A stretch of 32,481 nucleotides of DNA, taken from NCBI GenBank assembly GCA_009995385.1, contig JAACPT010000011.1:1-32481 (forward strand). Reading direction: 5' to 3'. The DNA comes from Candidatus Parcubacteria bacterium. Lineage in GTDB: Bacteria; Patescibacteriota; Minisyncoccia; Phycocordibacterales; UBA918. Below are positions 1 through 8,542 of this stretch, piece after piece (positions within the stretch are counted from its first letter, which is position 1; each line of letters begins with the position of its first letter). The translations under genes were made by a program, and so were the position numbers. The notes under the pieces were generated by a model. The model saw only the letters and a program-made list of their open reading frames with translations. It did no database searches and had not been told where the DNA came from.

Positions 1-53
1 AGATTCACCTTCACACCCTGATTCGGACGGGAGTTCGATTCTCCCCATCTCCA
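1..53 (+). ncRNA. ssrA: 3' end of tmRNA (tRNA-like domain: T arm and acceptor 3' strand); CCA not encoded
   Basis: GGGAG-TTCGATT-CTCCC T arm (29-45) followed by CATCTCC-A, the typical tmRNA 3' acceptor strand (pairs with GGGGAUG including the G:U). The rest lies upstream of the window. Confidence 0.7.
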
Positions 54-415
54 CATAAAGAAACTTCACCGACCCCACGCCACCCGCTCGCTTTGCGAAC
101 GGGTGTTTGTGTATGGGCAAAATCTGTTTTTGTGCTGTACGCAAAAACTAATTCCGAGAGGATGGTAAACCCGAAGCGCGGGGTTTTGTCACGAACCGAG
201 GGTTTGTTCCAATTATTTCTTAGGACTTTAAAATCTTTCAATGCTTCATGTAAAGCGGCGTTAGCGCGGAGAATCTTATCTTTTTTCCGCACGTACAATT
301 CCTTCGGAATATCCCCATCAAGATACGACTCGACCAACTTCATTTCTTTATTGATAATGGGTTTATGCCAGCGATACCGTTCCTCTTGAATTGTATTTGC
401 CATGGATATGCACAT
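11..415 (-). pseudogene. Short ORF overlapping the tmRNA 3' end; possible C-terminal remnant of a site-specific (serine) recombinase
   Basis: 134-aa ORF. The coiled, charged region 'KEMKLVESYLDGDIPKELYVRKKDKILRANAALHEALKDFKVL' resembles the C-terminal part of large serine recombinases. The reading frame runs antisense into the tmRNA T arm. Confidence 0.35.
81..105 (+). terminator. Hairpin downstream of tmRNA, possible terminator
   Basis: CACCCGCTCG-CTTTG-CGAACGGGTG: 10-bp arms with one mismatch, followed by TTTG. Confidence 0.4.
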
Positions 416-440
416 TTCCTAATGATAATGAAAAGTGCTA

Positions 441-456
441 AATGTGTGTACACATT
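441..456. promoter_or_regulatory. Operator-like inverted repeat upstream of the LuxI-like gene promoter
   Basis: AATGTG-TGTA-CACATT, 11 bp upstream of the -35 box. Confidence 0.35.
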
Positions 457-467
457 ACCGATGATAC

Positions 468-495
468 TTGACATTTATATAAAGTGATATATAAT
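468..495 (+). promoter_or_regulatory. Sigma70-like promoter
   Basis: TTGACA (468-473), 16-bp spacer, TATAAT (490-495): both hexamers consensus. Confidence 0.7.
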
Positions 496-601
496 TGAAT
501 CAGCTTCCTTGTGCTATACTGACATAAGAAAGCGGGGTCTCCCGTTTAGTTCATTGGGAGACTTATTTCTCTCAATCAACCCAACCAACTGGAGGCTTTG
601 T

Positions 602-1159
602 ATGAAGTTTTTTACGTTAAGAAAGAGTCCTCCTCCCATCAGCGGAGTGGTGCTACAGTGGAAAGAGCGAGATCATCAGTACTTTAAAGAGTACATGATG
701 ATCAGAGATTTCCATTACCATCACAAAAATCAATGGGAAGAGAGGGAGGGTGTCGACCAATACGACCCTCACAGCATTTTTGTGCTAGTGGTAGAGTCAA
801 GACATGTCGTCGCTGGTTGCCGTATTATCAATGATGATATCGGTCTTCCGGTACGCGAAGTCCTGCGAAACAATGGGTTACCGACAGAACAAATCCCACT
901 TGGTAGTTGCGAGATATCTCGCTTCGTCATCCACCCTGCCCATTTGGCAAGGAAAGAAACCGGAGATTACGTTAGCTATCTTGCTGATGCAATCAAGCTC
1001 TACTGCAGTGAAGATAGAATTTTCTCTGCCTACGCAGTCATGATTTCCATCCTCGAAAAATGGATGGATCGATTGGGTATACCTGTATTCCCATTGTCCC
1101 AACCCGCGGTAATTTCTCACGGCAGTGAGACGTTCCGCACCGTCCGGTTTCCAAGTTGA
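602..1159 (+). CDS. LuxI-like autoinducer synthase superfamily / GNAT-type N-acyltransferase
   Basis: Start at ATG 602 with GGAGG upstream. Motifs IRDFHYHHKNQW, EGVDQYD, VVAGCRII and CEISRF match the R/W, D-x2-D, R and E-x2-R pattern of AHL synthases. Confidence 0.65.
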   Translation: MKFFTLRKSPPPISGVVLQWKERDHQYFKEYMMIRDFHYHHKNQWEEREGVDQYDPHSIFVLVVESRHVVAGCRIINDDIGLPVREVLRNNGLPTEQIPLGSCEISRFVIHPAHLARKETGDYVSYLADAIKLYCSEDRIFSAYAVMISILEKWMDRLGIPVFPLSQPAVISHGSETFRTVRFPS

Positions 1160-1171
1160 AACCACCCCCTT

Positions 1172-1200
1172 AAAACCCGACACCGTCGGGTTTTAATTTT
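1172..1200. terminator. Rho-independent terminator
   Basis: AAAACCCGAC-ACC-GTCGGGTTTT followed by AATTTT. Confidence 0.85.
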
Positions 1201-1275
1201 GTCTACACAATCTAGATTTAGACACACCGCACACGTAACTCGTGCAAACAGAAAAAAATACGTTACACTATAGTC

Positions 1276-1647
1276 ATGGAAAAGAAAAAAATCCTCGTTG
1301 TTGAAGACTCACCCTACTTGGCTGAGTCACTTAAAGATATGCTCACCATTAAAGGCTACGAAGCAATCCTCGCTGAGGATGGGCGTGAAGGAGTAAGTAT
1401 GGCAATTGAGCAACAACCAGATCTTATCTTGCTCGATATTCGGCTCCCTGATATTGATGGCTACGAAGTATACCGCCGTATCCGCACTAATGATTGGGGC
1501 GCAAAAGCAAACATTATTGTCCTAACTGCCTCCGAATCAACTGAAAATATATCAAAGAATATCGACCTCCCTAAAGAAGATATCCTCTTTAAACCTGATT
1601 GGAGTGTTTCAGATTTGCTAGCGAAAATAGCGGAGAAAGTAAAGTAA
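1276..1647 (+). CDS. CheY-like single-domain response regulator
   Basis: KILVVEDSPYLAESLKDML...DLILLDIRLPDIDGYEVYRRIR...IIVLTA...LFKPD: receiver-domain motifs with no output domain. Confidence 0.93.
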   Translation: MEKKKILVVEDSPYLAESLKDMLTIKGYEAILAEDGREGVSMAIEQQPDLILLDIRLPDIDGYEVYRRIRTNDWGAKANIIVLTASESTENISKNIDLPKEDILFKPDWSVSDLLAKIAEKVK

Positions 1648-1707: not shown

Positions 1708-3021
1708 TTACTTTGCTTGGTCATCTGGTAATTCGAGCGGCAGAATCACTTCAAAGGTAGTACCAATATTTTCGGTGGTAGTAAACGAAATCTGCCCCTT
1801 AAGCACTGTGACCGCCTCGCGGACAATATAGAGCCCTAATCCAGTTCCATCAGGGACATTGCGCACAGCGTTAGATGCGCGAAAAAGTTTAGAGAAGACT
1901 TCCTCTTGATCTTCAACCGGGATCCCCATCCCGTTATCGGCTACTGTGATAACCAAGTTGTTATCTTTTGGACCGAACCCAATGTGAATAGTCCCATTCT
2001 CTCGAGTGTACTTAGTCGCATTTGAATAGAGATTCGTCACAATCATCCGCATCAGATTGAGGTCTGTGATGACAGTACCAACTGAGGCATCGTAAAATTT
2101 CTTAACCGTAATCTTTTTTTGTTCCACTCGAGGAGCTAACTCTAATAAAACATCTTCAAAAAGATCAGTCAGTGACACCGTCTTATACTCAGGATGAAAT
2201 GTACCTAACTCAAAACGTGAGACACGAAGGAAATCGTCTACCAGTAGCGCCATTCGCTTGATACTGAGTTGCAAACGATCTATGTATTTATGTTGTTGTT
2301 CGGTGAGTGTTTCTGGATTATCAACAAGTAATAATTCGGCACTCCATTTCATGCCGGCAATTGGTGTACGAAGCTGGTGCGAAGCAAGCGAAACAAACTC
2401 CGATTTTGCATCCTCAGCTTTCTTTTGTTTAGTAATATCAACAAGAGTCATGAGACCGATACATTGTCCCGCGACATCACTAGAGCCAAAAAGTGACAGT
2501 AATGCCCAGGCTTCACGATGATCAGGTTGTTTAACACGAACCATCTCGTCACTCACTGGTATCCCCCCTTTAAACTTTTCAATGAGAAGGTCAAGATGAT
2601 CTTCGTGCTCACAATGCAGTTGTTTAAATATCTCCATTCCTTTGATTTTGGCTTGAGTTACTCCAAACATTCGGACCGCAGCAATATTCGCAGATTTTAC
2701 AGTGCCCTCAGTATCGATAATCAAATACGGTACTGGGCTATTTCGATACAATTGAACATAGAGCTGATCTGAAGAAACTGCTAAATCGATTGCAACGTCT
2801 TTTTTCAAATCTTCTGAAGTCTGTGCAGCACGGGTAAGGTCATATACATTTTTTGCAATGAAAACACAACAAAGAAAAGCAGTCAGGAACAGCAGACCGC
2901 CAACATCGATTTGTGAAAAGTCATAGTACATTGCTAATAATATGACCATTGCAAACAAGAAACTAAACGTCAGTAGGGACTGGACGAATGGTTTTTTACT
3001 TTGATTATTAGACCAAGACAT
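1708..3021 (-). CDS. Membrane-bound PAS sensor histidine kinase (HisKA + HATPase_c)
   Basis: Two N-terminal hydrophobic segments, PAS-like region, SLASHQLRTPIAGMKWSAE H-box, N-box NLYSNATKYT, G boxes DNGMGI and GTGLGLYIV. Confidence 0.95.
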   Translation of the reverse strand: MSWSNNQSKKPFVQSLLTFSFLFAMVILLAMYYDFSQIDVGGLLFLTAFLCCVFIAKNVYDLTRAAQTSEDLKKDVAIDLAVSSDQLYVQLYRNSPVPYLIIDTEGTVKSANIAAVRMFGVTQAKIKGMEIFKQLHCEHEDHLDLLIEKFKGGIPVSDEMVRVKQPDHREAWALLSLFGSSDVAGQCIGLMTLVDITKQKKAEDAKSEFVSLASHQLRTPIAGMKWSAELLLVDNPETLTEQQHKYIDRLQLSIKRMALLVDDFLRVSRFELGTFHPEYKTVSLTDLFEDVLLELAPRVEQKKITVKKFYDASVGTVITDLNLMRMIVTNLYSNATKYTRENGTIHIGFGPKDNNLVITVADNGMGIPVEDQEEVFSKLFRASNAVRNVPDGTGLGLYIVREAVTVLKGQISFTTTENIGTTFEVILPLELPDDQAK

Positions 3022-3073: not shown

Positions 3074-4261
3074 CTAAGCAATACCTAGTAGTAAGCAGTC
3101 GGCAACAAGAGCCATTTCACCCATCTCATCCGTGCGCATCACTACCACTTTTACGGCACTATTACGAACACTAATCACTCCATCCTTTCCAACTAAAAGT
3201 TCATTACGATCTTTGCTCATCTGAATTCCGAGATATGACAATCCACTCAAGATTAGACTTCGCAATTCTGAACTTCGCACTGCGGCAGTAGCGGTAAAAA
3301 CAAGCACATCAATCCCACGGAGCGCGACCGTCTGTGCAGCGATAGCTTTTTGAATATTGTACGCATACATTTCTAACGCCTGCCTCGCAGTTGCGTCATT
3401 TTTCGAACGGCGGTCAAGTAACCGACGAATGTCAGATTCTTTTGCTACTCCAGCGAGTCCACCATTGGTGTTGATATACAGTTCAGCTTCAGCTGTCCGC
3501 CAATGCTTGCGACGCATAAGCTCAAGGAGGGCTGCATTATCAAGGTCACCAGCGCGACTCCCCATCGGTAGTCCTGTGGAAGGTGAAAATCCCATCGTCG
3601 TTTCGACACTCTTTCCATCTTTCACCGCGGTCACACTAGTACCACTGCCAATATGGCAAACCACCATACGCTCAGGATCCTGACCAATGACCGCATGAAT
3701 TCTTCGTACGATAGATGCAACCGAGAGCCCATGGTACCCAAAACGATGGATGTCGTACTGAATAGCGTCAGCGGTAATGATACTGTACTCGCGCGCTTTA
3801 GGAGGCATTTCACTATGGAAGGCACTGTCAGAAGCAGCGATTAGTTTTGCTTGTTTATAGTGTTTTCGAGCACTTTCAACTTCTCGAAGTATGAGTGGAA
3901 TATGCAACGGAGCGATAGCCGACCGCCGCGTAAGTTCTGCGACATACGCATCATCAATGATTGCGTGGTGCTGAAAAAAAGTTCCTGGCGCTACTACTCG
4001 AATAACTATCGCATCTAATTTTTTTCCACGTTCTTCACGAAACATATACGAATCAACCGCTTCAACAACACGAGCAAATGAGTCATTGAAATCTACTTTC
4101 TCGACCGCGGCGCAGACTTGCTGAGTACCAGCAGTTTGCGAACACATTTCGAAGCCGGTATTTGTATCTTCAAAGCGAAATTCCAAAACTGACTGCCCAC
4201 CTTTATATAAGGCATACTTTCGAGAGGAAGATCCTGGGTTTACTACGAGCGTTGTTGCCAT
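3074..4261 (-). CDS. ackA: Acetate kinase family protein (divergent)
   Basis: VNPGSSSRKYAL, SDSAFHSEMPP, FGYHGLS, HIGSGTS, TTMGFSPSTGLPMGSRAGDLD. Confidence 0.85.
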   Translation of the reverse strand: MATTLVVNPGSSSRKYALYKGGQSVLEFRFEDTNTGFEMCSQTAGTQQVCAAVEKVDFNDSFARVVEAVDSYMFREERGKKLDAIVIRVVAPGTFFQHHAIIDDAYVAELTRRSAIAPLHIPLILREVESARKHYKQAKLIAASDSAFHSEMPPKAREYSIITADAIQYDIHRFGYHGLSVASIVRRIHAVIGQDPERMVVCHIGSGTSVTAVKDGKSVETTMGFSPSTGLPMGSRAGDLDNAALLELMRRKHWRTAEAELYINTNGGLAGVAKESDIRRLLDRRSKNDATARQALEMYAYNIQKAIAAQTVALRGIDVLVFTATAAVRSSELRSLILSGLSYLGIQMSKDRNELLVGKDGVISVRNSAVKVVVMRTDEMGEMALVADCLLLGIA

Positions 4262-6600
4262 GTCCAGTTGGTAATTTCAGCCAAATCTTCACCGTGTTCA
4301 ATAACATAGGTACGGTGCGCTGCTAATTTTTCTTGGAAGTCAGAAATTAAGCGTTGCGCTTCTGTCTCATCAATTACGTTTTGTTGTGCTGCTACAGCAA
4401 AAGCTTCCATCGCTAGATGGTATCGATCAACTCTGTTTCGAACCATCATATCAAATGGCGTTGTAGTCGAACCTGACTCCTCGTAGCCATGTACGATGAA
4501 ACGCCTCGGATTAAGAGCATAATCAAACAACACTTGCTTCATGGTTTGTGGGTAGCCATGGAAATTAACGATGACTGGCTTATCTTCTGTAAAGTAATGT
4601 TTAAAATCATGGCGAAGTACTCGACAGTTTGAGTTACCAATTCCAAGCGCCGAAAGTGATGCGATGTTTACAAAGCGAATACGGAGGGCTGGCACGAATT
4701 CTCGCACAAGACTAATGGCAGCAAGCGCTTCGAGTGTCGGATAATCACCCGCCGCCGAAAATACCACCTGCGGATCTTCATCACTCACGAAATTCCAAAT
4801 CGATACACCATCCTCAAAATCTTGTTTTGCCTCCTCAATCGTACGCCAAATCGGCAATGGGCGCTTTTCGCACACAAGTACGTTTATTTCTTTGGTTGAC
4901 TTCATCATGCGGTCAAACGCAACGAGCGCGGAATTAGCATCGGCTGGGAAATACACGTTAGTAAAGCAACCTTGGCGCTGTAAAACTCCATCAATAAACC
5001 CAGGATTCTGGTGAGAAAAGCCGTTGTGTTCTTGGCGCCACGCCCCAGAAGTGAGAATGTAATTGAGCGACGGAATAGTACCTCGCCACTTCACATCACG
5101 AGCTATCTTGAGAAACTTTGCGTACTGGTCAGTCATGCTCGCCACAATCTGTACAAATGCTTCGTATGAGGCAAAGACACCATGTCGACCGGTGAGTACA
5201 TACCCTTGCAGCATCCCCTGTAGGCTATGTTCCGAAAGCATCTCGAGTACTCTTCCGTCCCATGCCATATCTCTATCCCACTCTTTATGAGGCCAGACAA
5301 ATGAACGTTTCGTCGCTTCAAAAACTGCGTGGAGTTTATTTGAATAGGTCTCATCCGGTGACATGATACGGAGATTTCTATTATGTTCATTGAGACGAAT
5401 CGTGTCACGGAGATATGCCCCAATTTTTTCCATACCACTCTCTGAACCCGTAATTGGGCTAGTAAGATCACTGACTGTTTCAATGTCATAATCTTCAACT
5501 GCCGGAAGGATAAGTGGTTTGTAGACAGGCTCACCGCCACGGGCGTGCGGAGTATCACCCATACGTCGTCCCTCTGGTGGAACTAAACTCTGGATATCAT
5601 CATCAAATTTCACCCCATCAAAGAGTTCATTGAAGCGATATGAACGAAGCCAATCTTCAAGCTGCTTTCGCTGTCCTTCATCAGTTTTAGCTAGTTCAGC
5701 AATCACTTGGTGTGATAAACAATTGTCCTCAATCTTATTCCCATCAATATAATCAATACTTCCCCAACCTTTTGGCGTGCGAAGGATAATCATTGGGAAA
5801 CGTGGATTTTCATGCAGTGTTCCTTCACGGGCGCAGTGCTGTGTGAAGCGAATCGCTTCTATCGCATCGTCGAGAACTTTCATCATACGACCATGCACAT
5901 CTTCTTCTTTGTGCGCGTCAACAAAATGTGGCTCGTATCCATATCCCCAGAAAAGTGACCGCAGTTCTTCATCACTCATGCGACCCATAAAAGTTGGGCC
6001 AGAAATCTTGTAGCCGTTGAGATGAAGAATCGGTAGCACTGCTCCATTTTTACCCGGGTCAATCAATTTATTGAGGTGCCAAGCAGTGGCAGTTGGACCG
6101 GTCTCAGCTTCACCGTCGCCAACGAGACAAGCGACGATTAAATCGGGGTTATCAAGTATCGCACCGTATGAAGTAGCTAGTGAGTAACCGAGTTCGCCGC
6201 CTTCTAAAATAACTCCTGGTGCCTCTGGATTACTATGACTAGGATAGCCATATGGCCAGCTAAACATATGGGTCATGTGCGATAGACCAGCAGTATCGTG
6301 TGTGATATCTTTAAAATATTTTGTCAGCGTCCCTTCCAAAAAGAGGTTGGCTTGCACTGCGGGGAAGCCGTGCCCTGGCCCAAGCACAAACATCATATTC
6401 ACATCATGCGCAATAATGGCACGATTAAGATGTGCGTAGGTAAAATTAATACCGGGACAAGTACCCCAATGCCCTAAGAGTCTCGGCTTTATATGCTCTG
6501 ACTTTAGCGGCTCTGTTAATAACACATTATCTTTTAAATAAATCTGCGCAGCCGACAAATAATTTGTGGCGCGAACGAACTTTTTAAGAACATCACTCAT
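4243..6600 (-). CDS. xfp: Xylulose-5-phosphate/fructose-6-phosphate phosphoketolase
   Basis: 785 aa; RPRLLGHWGTCPGINFTYAHLNR, GPGHG, GDGEAETGP, WRQEHNGFSHQNPGFID, HGYEESGSTTTPFDM. Confidence 0.97.
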   Translation of the reverse strand: MSDVLKKFVRATNYLSAAQIYLKDNVLLTEPLKSEHIKPRLLGHWGTCPGINFTYAHLNRAIIAHDVNMMFVLGPGHGFPAVQANLFLEGTLTKYFKDITHDTAGLSHMTHMFSWPYGYPSHSNPEAPGVILEGGELGYSLATSYGAILDNPDLIVACLVGDGEAETGPTATAWHLNKLIDPGKNGAVLPILHLNGYKISGPTFMGRMSDEELRSLFWGYGYEPHFVDAHKEEDVHGRMMKVLDDAIEAIRFTQHCAREGTLHENPRFPMIILRTPKGWGSIDYIDGNKIEDNCLSHQVIAELAKTDEGQRKQLEDWLRSYRFNELFDGVKFDDDIQSLVPPEGRRMGDTPHARGGEPVYKPLILPAVEDYDIETVSDLTSPITGSESGMEKIGAYLRDTIRLNEHNRNLRIMSPDETYSNKLHAVFEATKRSFVWPHKEWDRDMAWDGRVLEMLSEHSLQGMLQGYVLTGRHGVFASYEAFVQIVASMTDQYAKFLKIARDVKWRGTIPSLNYILTSGAWRQEHNGFSHQNPGFIDGVLQRQGCFTNVYFPADANSALVAFDRMMKSTKEINVLVCEKRPLPIWRTIEEAKQDFEDGVSIWNFVSDEDPQVVFSAAGDYPTLEALAAISLVREFVPALRIRFVNIASLSALGIGNSNCRVLRHDFKHYFTEDKPVIVNFHGYPQTMKQVLFDYALNPRRFIVHGYEESGSTTTPFDMMVRNRVDRYHLAMEAFAVAAQQNVIDETEAQRLISDFQEKLAAHRTYVIEHGEDLAEITNWTWQQRS

Positions 6601-6677: not shown

Positions 6678-7079
6678 ATGTCAAGAACTAAAAATGTCAT
6701 CGTACAAAGAAGCAGCGCGGGACTAGGATTGTTTGCTACGGTACCGTTTGCAAAGGGCGATTTCGTTATTGAGTATACTGGTGAAGTCATCAGCGACGAA
6801 GAAGCGCAGCGCCGTGGTGGTAAATATCTTTTCGAACTCAACGACAAGTGGACTATCGACGGGAAAGGTCGTCAGCACATTGCACGCTATATTAACCATA
6901 GCTGCAAACCAAACTGCGAACCACAACTAAACGACGATGAGACGCGTGTCTTTATTTATGCAAAAAAGAAAATCACCCCCGGAGAGGAGCTGACATACAA
7001 TTACGGTGTGGACTATTTCAGACGTGTCATTAAACCACTTGGCTGCCGCTGTAGTAAGTGTAGCACTACTGCAAAATAG
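6678..7079 (+). CDS. SET-domain protein-lysine methyltransferase-like protein with post-SET-like Cys cluster
   Basis: SSAGLGLFATVPFAKGDFVIEYTGEVIS, RYINHSCKPNCEP, GEELTYNYGVDYF, GCRCSKCS. Confidence 0.93.
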   Translation: MSRTKNVIVQRSSAGLGLFATVPFAKGDFVIEYTGEVISDEEAQRRGGKYLFELNDKWTIDGKGRQHIARYINHSCKPNCEPQLNDDETRVFIYAKKKITPGEELTYNYGVDYFRRVIKPLGCRCSKCSTTAK

Positions 7080-7738: not shown

Positions 7739-8542
7739 ATGGAATCATTAATTGTCAACAGTGGTATCGTCGCCCTTCTTATTCTTATGTACGTAACCGG
7801 TGTCTTTGTTATTGCCTTTTTACGAGAAGACAATAGTATTATGGATATTGCATACGGTCCGGCTTTTTTGTTCAGTATCGGTGGAGCTACCCTTCTTACT
7901 GGAAACTTTACGCTATCACCGCTCATTATCAGTAGTGGTATTGCCCTGTGGAGCATACGCCTTAGTACCCGCATCTTCCAAAAAAATCATGGTAAACCAG
8001 AAGACTTCCGTTACGCCAAATGGCGAAGCACTTGGAACGAACGCGGACGCTGGTATTTTTTCATTCGTAGTTATTTGCAAATAAATATCTTGCAAGGAGT
8101 TATTATTTTTTTAGTAGCACTGCCTGGTATAGTTGCCCTATCTACAGTAAGCAATCCTTCCCCACTCGCACTATACTTTGGAACGGCGATATTTTTATTT
8201 GGGCTCACATATGAGACTATCGCTGATTGGCAACTTGACCGTTTTATCGCTAACAAGCGCTCTGGCACTGAGAACGCCAACTTAATGAAGACGGGGCTTT
8301 TTGCGTACAGCCGTCGGCCAAACTACTTTGGTGAAACCCTCATCTGGTGGGGACTCGCTATCATTGTTTCACCGTTGCCATATGGTTGGATCGCGTTTGT
8401 CAGTCCAATAGTGATTACGTTCATTGTTACTAAAGTAACTGGTCCAATGCTTGAACAAGCCTTTTTAGAAAAGTTCCCTGAGGAATATAATTTGTACATG
8501 AAACAGGTGAATTATTTAGTACCTGGACCGAGAAGAGATTAG
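7739..8542 (+). CDS. DUF1295 / steroid 5-alpha-reductase C-terminal-like integral membrane protein
   Basis: Polytopic protein; DxAYGPAFL, SIRLSTRIF, PEDFRYAKWR, and C-terminal GLFAYSRRPNYFGETLIWWG typical of DUF1295. Confidence 0.9.
   Translation: MESLIVNSGIVALLILMYVTGVFVIAFLREDNSIMDIAYGPAFLFSIGGATLLTGNFTLSPLIISSGIALWSIRLSTRIFQKNHGKPEDFRYAKWRSTWNERGRWYFFIRSYLQINILQGVIIFLVALPGIVALSTVSNPSPLALYFGTAIFLFGLTYETIADWQLDRFIANKRSGTENANLMKTGLFAYSRRPNYFGETLIWWGLAIIVSPLPYGWIAFVSPIVITFIVTKVTGPMLEQAFLEKFPEEYNLYMKQVNYLVPGPRRD

Follow-up and report, generated by a model that had tools for sequence, protein, structure and literature searches.

Organisation of the locus

The window, i.e. the whole stretch of 32,481 nucleotides that was analysed, begins in the 3' end of ssrA and carries a single gene for a predicted LuxI-fold N-acyltransferase (P0001), followed by a response regulator and a histidine kinase:

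1..56, + strand: 3' end of ssrA (tmRNA; Rfam tmRNA E 4e-11)
330..459, - strand: insertion sequence (IS) remnant, a transposase ORF start plus a conserved end, with multi-copy matches in the genus
468..495, + strand: sigma-70 promoter TTGACA-16-TATAAT of the P0001 gene, 12/12 match
534..599, + strand: 5' UTR structure with the Shine-Dalgarno sequence (591-595) paired in its outer stem, 534-542 / 591-599
602..1159, + strand: predicted LuxI-fold N-acyltransferase gene (P0001, 185 aa), uninterrupted ORF with Shine-Dalgarno sequence at 591-595
704..766, + strand: codons R35-x3-Y39-x5-W45 ... D52-x2-D55, N-terminal catalytic motif by alignment with 9 AHL synthases
821..823, + strand: R74 codon of the AGCR motif (LuxI R68-70 equivalent by alignment)
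911..922, + strand: codons E104-I-S106-R107, E-x-S/T-R motif by alignment
1170..1196, + strand: intrinsic terminator of the P0001 gene, perfect 12-pair stem and T-rich tail
1276..1647, + strand: single-domain response regulator (Response_reg 1.3e-23), separate transcription unit
1708..3021, - strand: PAS histidine kinase (HisKA, HATPase_c and PAS matches), convergent with the response regulator

The ORF of P0001 starts with ATG, 6 nt downstream of the Shine-Dalgarno sequence GGAGG. The promoter was the top-scoring site within the region and matches the consensus at all 12 positions. The terminator lies directly 3' of the stop codon and the gene is therefore a separate transcription unit. Its GC content is 46%, compared with 43% for the genome. 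The 5' UTR (window 500-605) folds with an MFE of -33.4 kcal/mol (z -2.97), and none of 200 shuffles was equally stable. This structure is a possible lead for translational control, as predicted from a single-sequence fold; a rival hairpin GTCTCCC/GGGAGAC competes with the fold that pairs the Shine-Dalgarno sequence. An Rfam scan of the 5' UTR matched no family, and a known riboswitch was rejected on this ground. A sub-threshold rnk_pseudo match covers the terminator hairpin and was judged to be due to chance.

Flanking regions and gene gain

The remainder of ssrA was found at the start of contig C38, which is joined to the window by an exact 36-base overlap, and ARAGORN predicted a complete tmRNA across this junction. 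A search of window 1-1300 for an att-type repeat of the 3' end of ssrA in direct orientation found none, and an integrative element marked by such a repeat was therefore rejected. The region between ssrA and the P0001 gene does contain the remains of an IS: the truncated ORF 11-415 begins like an integrase-type transposase of 315 aa that is intact in genus member G013, and the remnant has multi-copy matches of 82-85% identity in G008 and G013, the G013 copy being located at this intact ORF. Part of window 300-480 is multi-copy in G008, where the copies diverge after ACACATTACC, corresponding to window position ~459. This end of the remnant adjoins the promoter of the P0001 gene. The conserved IS end contains a perfect palindrome, TGTGTACACA (window 445-454), just upstream of the promoter, and recurs in genus members G006 and G008.

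Downstream, the response regulator, the convergent PAS kinase, ackA, xfp and a SET-domain gene form a block that is wholly or nearly kept in seven genus members. All seven of these relatives have the regulator and kinase without a LuxI-like gene at this place; ackA accompanies them throughout, xfp and SET in most cases, and in one genome (G002) the interval between ssrA and the regulator is occupied by other genes. The P0001 gene looks horizontally acquired, since it has ssrA and an IS remnant on one side and, on the other, a block that is found without it in seven relatives. On the simplest reading, the interval from ssrA to the regulator is a variable site that has gained one gene, and the response regulator and PAS kinase are the ancestral neighbours of the gene. 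Because relatives without a LuxI-like gene keep the kinase, it does not look dedicated to P0001, and a dedicated LuxI-kinase system was rejected as a demonstrated arrangement. Still, the searches detected no more than two histidine kinases genome-wide, so that the position of the P0001 gene beside one of them is mildly suggestive, and the adjacency may matter all the same. No LuxR match was obtained with three partial LuxR queries, and no kinase was seen near the other members of the P0001 clade.

Further genes in the window were noted. The phosphoketolase-like and acetate kinase genes overlap (window 3074-6600) and a phosphotransacetylase match is absent genome-wide. The SET-domain protein (window 6678-7079, E 1.3e-27) keeps its place next to the phosphoketolase and acetate kinase genes across this CPR genus. 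At window 7739-8542 this CPR genome encodes a DUF1295/steroid-reductase-like membrane protein (E 6e-45).

Signature residues and predicted fold

The original prediction placed P0001 in the LuxI-like autoinducer synthase family on the basis of R-x9-W, D-x2-D, VVAGCR and E-x2-R motifs in the order found in AHL synthases. All of these occur in the intact ORF (as IRDFHYHHKNQW, VDQYD, VVAGCR and CEISRF), and their proposed equivalence to the conserved LuxI/EsaI residues held up in an alignment with nine annotated or close-homologue AHL synthases of rhizobial/methylobacterial origin. In this alignment R35, Y39, W45, D52, D55, R74, E104, S106 and R107 fall in conserved, catalytic columns, Y39 being in the F/Y column, S106 in the S/T column and W45 at R+10, an equivalence that rests on spacing as MAFFT misaligned that column. 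The conserved order R, F/Y, W, D, D, R, E, R is thus present as R35, Y39, W45, D52, D55, R74, E104 and R107. In LuxI enzymes the N-terminal motif (R35 to D55) forms the SAM/amine side. R74 is invariant in P0001, 25/25 CPR homologues and 9/9 AHL synthases, and E104 and R107 are identical in 9/9 of the aligned AHL synthases. Two differences were seen. The R35-D52 spacing is 17 in P0001 versus 21-22 in AHL synthases, and the AGCR arginine is followed by LP-x-x-E-x-L, where LuxI enzymes have LPT..PHLL..VFP.

Among the CPR homologues found, D52, D55, R74 and R107 are invariant, R-x3-F/Y with an aromatic residue at +10 is common, and the P0001 clade retains the R-Y/F-W/Y-D-D-R-E-R set despite only ~25-31% identity to P0001. 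The CPR homologues match the exosort_acyl model (25/26), AHL-synthase models (12-15/26) and OlsB models (8-9/26) to varying degree. Since the same residues recur in related acyltransferases of CPR bacteria with matches to other families, they are not very specific for AHL synthesis and mark a wider LuxI/FeeM/exosort_acyl acyltransferase group.

An AlphaFold2 model of P0001 built with 26 homologues had a mean pLDDT of 87.4 and a pTM of 0.85, with low confidence mainly at residues 41-50 (mean pLDDT 56) and 171-185. Foldseek searches of the PDB with this model gave AHL synthases at all of ranks 1-8 (BjaI at 2e-8, LasI with a TM score of 0.76, EsaI, MesI), followed by GNATs and further AHL synthases, with FeeM at 2.7e-6; among viral models the best match was a phage AHL synthetase. 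The fold predicted by AlphaFold2 and identified by Foldseek is thus LuxI-like and lies within the LuxI/GNAT fold that the original prediction depended on. In the model the signature residues sit in helix 26-39, the loop after this helix, and strands 68-77 and 103-110. AHL synthases have the same order of secondary-structure elements bearing their catalytic residues. The expected active-site position of the aligned residues is therefore suggested by their place in LuxI catalytic columns and on equivalent elements of the predicted structure.

Family assignment and phylogeny

Single-model searches would lead to a different annotation, naively 'GNAT family protein'. In Pfam, P0001 scored above the gathering cut-off of Acetyltransf_5 (PF13444; 24.2 bits versus 22.4) and did not match the generic Acetyltransf_1. 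It did not match Autoind_synth (PF00765) in a scan up to E 10, a model for which two members of its clade reached 22.8 and 21.0 bits versus a cut-off of 24, and it remained below the cut-off of FeeM (PF21926; 17 bits versus 27, E 0.005). Its sole NCBIfam match was TIGR03694 (exosort_acyl; 2e-5, 24.2 bits versus a cut-off of 111.95) and it passed the cut-off of none of the NCBIfam AHL-synthase models. A single-sequence search of the PDB gave BjaI with an E-value of 0.034.

Profile-based comparison was more informative. A LuxI HMM built from nine AHL synthases or close homologues was searched against all 5,300 ORFs of at least 50 aa in the genome and scored P0001 at 33 bits (E 1.1e-8), compared to 8.8 bits for the second-best ORF and a maximum of 3.3 bits over 1,000 shuffled versions of P0001, so at the sequence level its likeness to LuxI exceeds what is expected by chance. 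The profile of the five-member P0001 clade found BjaI (1.5e-10), LasI (9.3e-10), RpaI (1.6e-7), MesI (7.5e-5) and EsaI (8.5e-4) in the PDB and did not find FeeM. With hhalign, this clade matched the AHL synthases with 98.4% probability (E 5e-15, 142 columns), and the CPR exosort_acyl-like group more weakly (E 7e-11).

In the tree, P0001 groups with one sequence from its genus (G017), one from its order (G094) and two paralogues from a genome of its class (G382), with 95/95 support. This clade consists of CPR sequences only and stands apart from the nine AHL synthases, which form their own clade (support 100/99); branches are long. Topologies that unite the AHL synthases with P0001 or with its clade were not rejected (p-AU 0.29 and 0.34), so phylogeny with CPR homologues, proposed as a check of the original prediction, gives P0001 a clade of its own and is compatible with a union with AHL synthases. 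Taken together, P0001 is very probably a real LuxI-fold N-acyltransferase. The original prediction is upheld in fold and motif order; production of an autoinducer is not borne out by the unspecific residues, PF00765, the NCBIfam AHL cut-offs or the searches for LuxR and a SAM synthase.

Distribution of homologues

Homologues are sparsely distributed, being detected in 3/146 genomes of relatives, 12/397 of the order, 8/384 of the class and 16/380 of the phylum, counts for which samples overlap and queries differ, relatives having been searched with a single sequence. Only two genus members, including G017, carry a homologue. A search of the relatives with the PF13444 model missed even the known P0001 gene, and its zero count is uninformative. 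Collections of genome contigs and plasmids contained no close relatives of P0001.

LuxI homologues that keep the key residues were reported from CPR genomes in 2020, where they were found by BLAST/HMM thresholds against LuxI references and 18 of them are described as adjoining a sensor kinase (PMC7567580). As a general finding CPR LuxI homologues are therefore already known from that description, and the novelty implied by the original prediction is smaller than it seemed. No experimental test of CPR LuxI homologues was found in the literature searched.

Several CPR homologues of other clades adjoin 7TM histidine kinases. In G303 (L007:241-3366) a LuxI-like gene lies between two HisKA_7TM proteins and exceeds the Autoind_synth cut-off (3.5e-17); it is a better candidate for an AHL synthase with its receptor than the P0001 gene. 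In two CPR genomes (G244, L008:1294-2583; G1047, L142:1366-2643) a SAM-dependent methyltransferase domain is fused to a LuxI/FeeM-like acyltransferase domain, and the fusion gene of G244 adjoins a 7TM kinase-like gene and a response regulator. Separate methyltransferase genes adjoin homologues at four loci (L005, L006, L129 and L132). The two P0001-clade paralogues of G382 lie ~18 kb apart (C1, ~176.4 and 194.8 kb; L116/L117) and this CPR genome has two ACP-domain matches.

Genome and substrate supply

The genome measures 723,122 bases, in an assembly of 92.4% completeness. Among named organisms, the closest relatives of the adjacent kinase come from Ca. Elulimicrobium, Ca. Kaiserbacteria, Ca. 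Paceibacterota and Patescibacteria. The CPR/Patescibacteria origin that had been read from the sequence agrees with these relatives and with the 723-kb genome, and the source is a tiny, probably symbiotic Patescibacterium.

It had also been argued that such a cell lacks a normal acyl supply, and the genome bears this out. Whole-genome phmmer searches with E. coli queries found no FabH, FabD, FabG, FabF, AcpP, AcpS, PlsX or FadD, and no MetK, Pta, Acs, PDH E1/E2, CoaD or CoaE. Pfam models for MetK and ACP gave no match in the whole genome either. The same type of search did detect AckA, MutM, L33, L28 and Rnc, with the limitation that E. coli queries have limited sensitivity, divergent proteins may escape and the Era control was weak. 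At this completeness and with divergent proteins missable, each single absence is uncertain; the joint absence is persuasive. Within the genus, MetK occurs in 12/38 members and is absent from G017, the other carrier. MetK and ACP were each found in 5/26 carriers of P0001 homologues, no enrichment, and co-occurrence of carriers with either was rejected for this reason. The assembly thus shows no cellular source of SAM and acyl-ACP/acyl-CoA. Uptake is possible, and a working enzyme would probably depend on scavenged substrates.

Proposed function and alternatives

We propose that P0001 is a divergent LuxI-superfamily N-acyltransferase. Its GNAT-fold active site would transfer the acyl group of a thioester, either acyl-CoA or acyl-ACP, to an amine, which would be that of SAM or of a free amino acid. 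The substrates would be drawn from the host or neighbours, and the product, an N-acyl amino acid or an AHL-like molecule, could have its effect extracellularly. We somewhat favour this combination of fold, scavenged substrates and product, in which activity, substrates and product are inferred. As for the product, an N-acyl amino acid is a fair guess that falls short of probable, and both an AHL and another N-acylated amine or a protein- or tRNA-linked substrate are rather less likely, to about the same degree. A signalling function is plausible from the sequence. That a CPR-specific LuxI-fold clade, spread between lineages by mobile DNA, would make a signal or effector wholly from thioester and amine substrates of host or neighbours is a broader idea that we regard as distinctly doubtful. 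If true, a molecule that an ultra-small symbiont cannot make by itself would serve it to report on the metabolism of its host or to manipulate it. For CPR-host communication, the P0001 gene is a clean, strongly promoted single-gene candidate, open to expression in E. coli, where the usual substrates are available, and its genome makes the question of host-derived substrates concrete.

P0001 could be a true AHL synthase, using host SAM and host acyl-CoA (like BjaI/RpaI/MesI) or acyl-ACP to make an AHL that is sensed by the adjacent kinase and regulator or by the host. The full LuxI residue set, the nearest solved structures (the CoA-dependent BjaI, RpaI and MesI, plus LasI) and the p-AU values of 0.29-0.34 for a joint grouping are consistent with this, as is the recurrence of LuxI homologues beside sensor kinases in CPR, both as described in PMC7567580 and among the homologues studied here. 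However, MetK was found neither in the source genome nor in G017, LuxR was not matched, P0001 exceeds no AHL-synthase family cut-off, the kinase/regulator block occurs without the gene in 7/7 relatives and the other clade members have no nearby kinase, and we consider this function unlikely. A non-signalling acyltransferase of the exosortase-associated, OlsB or FeeM type, active for example in N-acylation of lipids or surface molecules, would explain why TIGR03694, although far under its cut-off, is the sole NCBIfam match of P0001 and matches 25/26 family members, and why OlsB models match 8-9/26; FeeM-like GNATs also have the same fold. The clade profile nevertheless retrieves AHL synthases and not FeeM from the PDB, and the hhalign match to the CPR exosort_acyl-like group (E 7e-11) is weaker than that to AHL synthases (E 5e-15), which leaves this type of enzyme somewhat unlikely.

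An ordinary GNAT acetyltransferase acting on small molecules, proteins or aminoacyl-tRNA, with only a resemblance to LuxI, would fit the generic Acetyltransf_5 match and the GNATs that come right after the AHL synthases in Foldseek. It would not fit the lack of an Acetyltransf_1 match or the residue set retained in the clade at ~25-31% identity, and we think it very unlikely. Finally, the contig edge, the adjoining IS remnant and the restriction to two genus members could point to an acquired gene in decay and without function, or to contamination of the assembly. Against this, the ORF is intact and has a consensus promoter, Shine-Dalgarno sequence and terminator, it shares its contig with the genus-conserved block and is joined to the ssrA of the genome, and its GC content (46% versus 43%) is near that of the genome. 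Decay or contamination is therefore hardly credible.

Comparison with known systems

FeeM, an N-acyl amino acid synthase (2g0b), has the fold of P0001, and its Pfam model gives an E-value of 0.005, below cut-off; unlike the AHL synthases, it is not retrieved from the PDB by the P0001-clade profile. The PEP-CTERM/exosortase-associated acyltransferase TIGR03694 is the sole NCBIfam match (2e-5), at 24 bits versus a cut-off of 112, and exosortase genes were not seen in the part of the P0001 neighbourhood that was examined. The ACP-dependent LasI and EsaI (1ro5, 1kzf) have the fold (LasI TM 0.76) and R-F/Y-W-D-D-R-E-R residues in common with P0001, whereas P0001 falls outside PF00765 by score and its genome has no match for ACP or fatty-acid synthesis. 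The CoA-dependent AHL synthases BjaI, RpaI and MesI (PDB 5w8a, 6wn0, 6wns) are the top PDB matches by profile and among the best by fold, and have the same catalytic residue set at ~20% identity. P0001 differs from them in its shorter R35-D52 loop, in having no LuxR partner found and in a genome that shows no SAM or acyl-CoA synthesis. The CPR LuxI homologues, as described in PMC7567580, resemble P0001 in keeping the key residues and having a sensor kinase as neighbour, but the neighbour of P0001 is an ancestral PAS kinase that is present in relatives without the gene. To that description the present analysis adds a divergent clade of its own, a genome in which the substrate pathways are missing, and the mobile context of a single gene.
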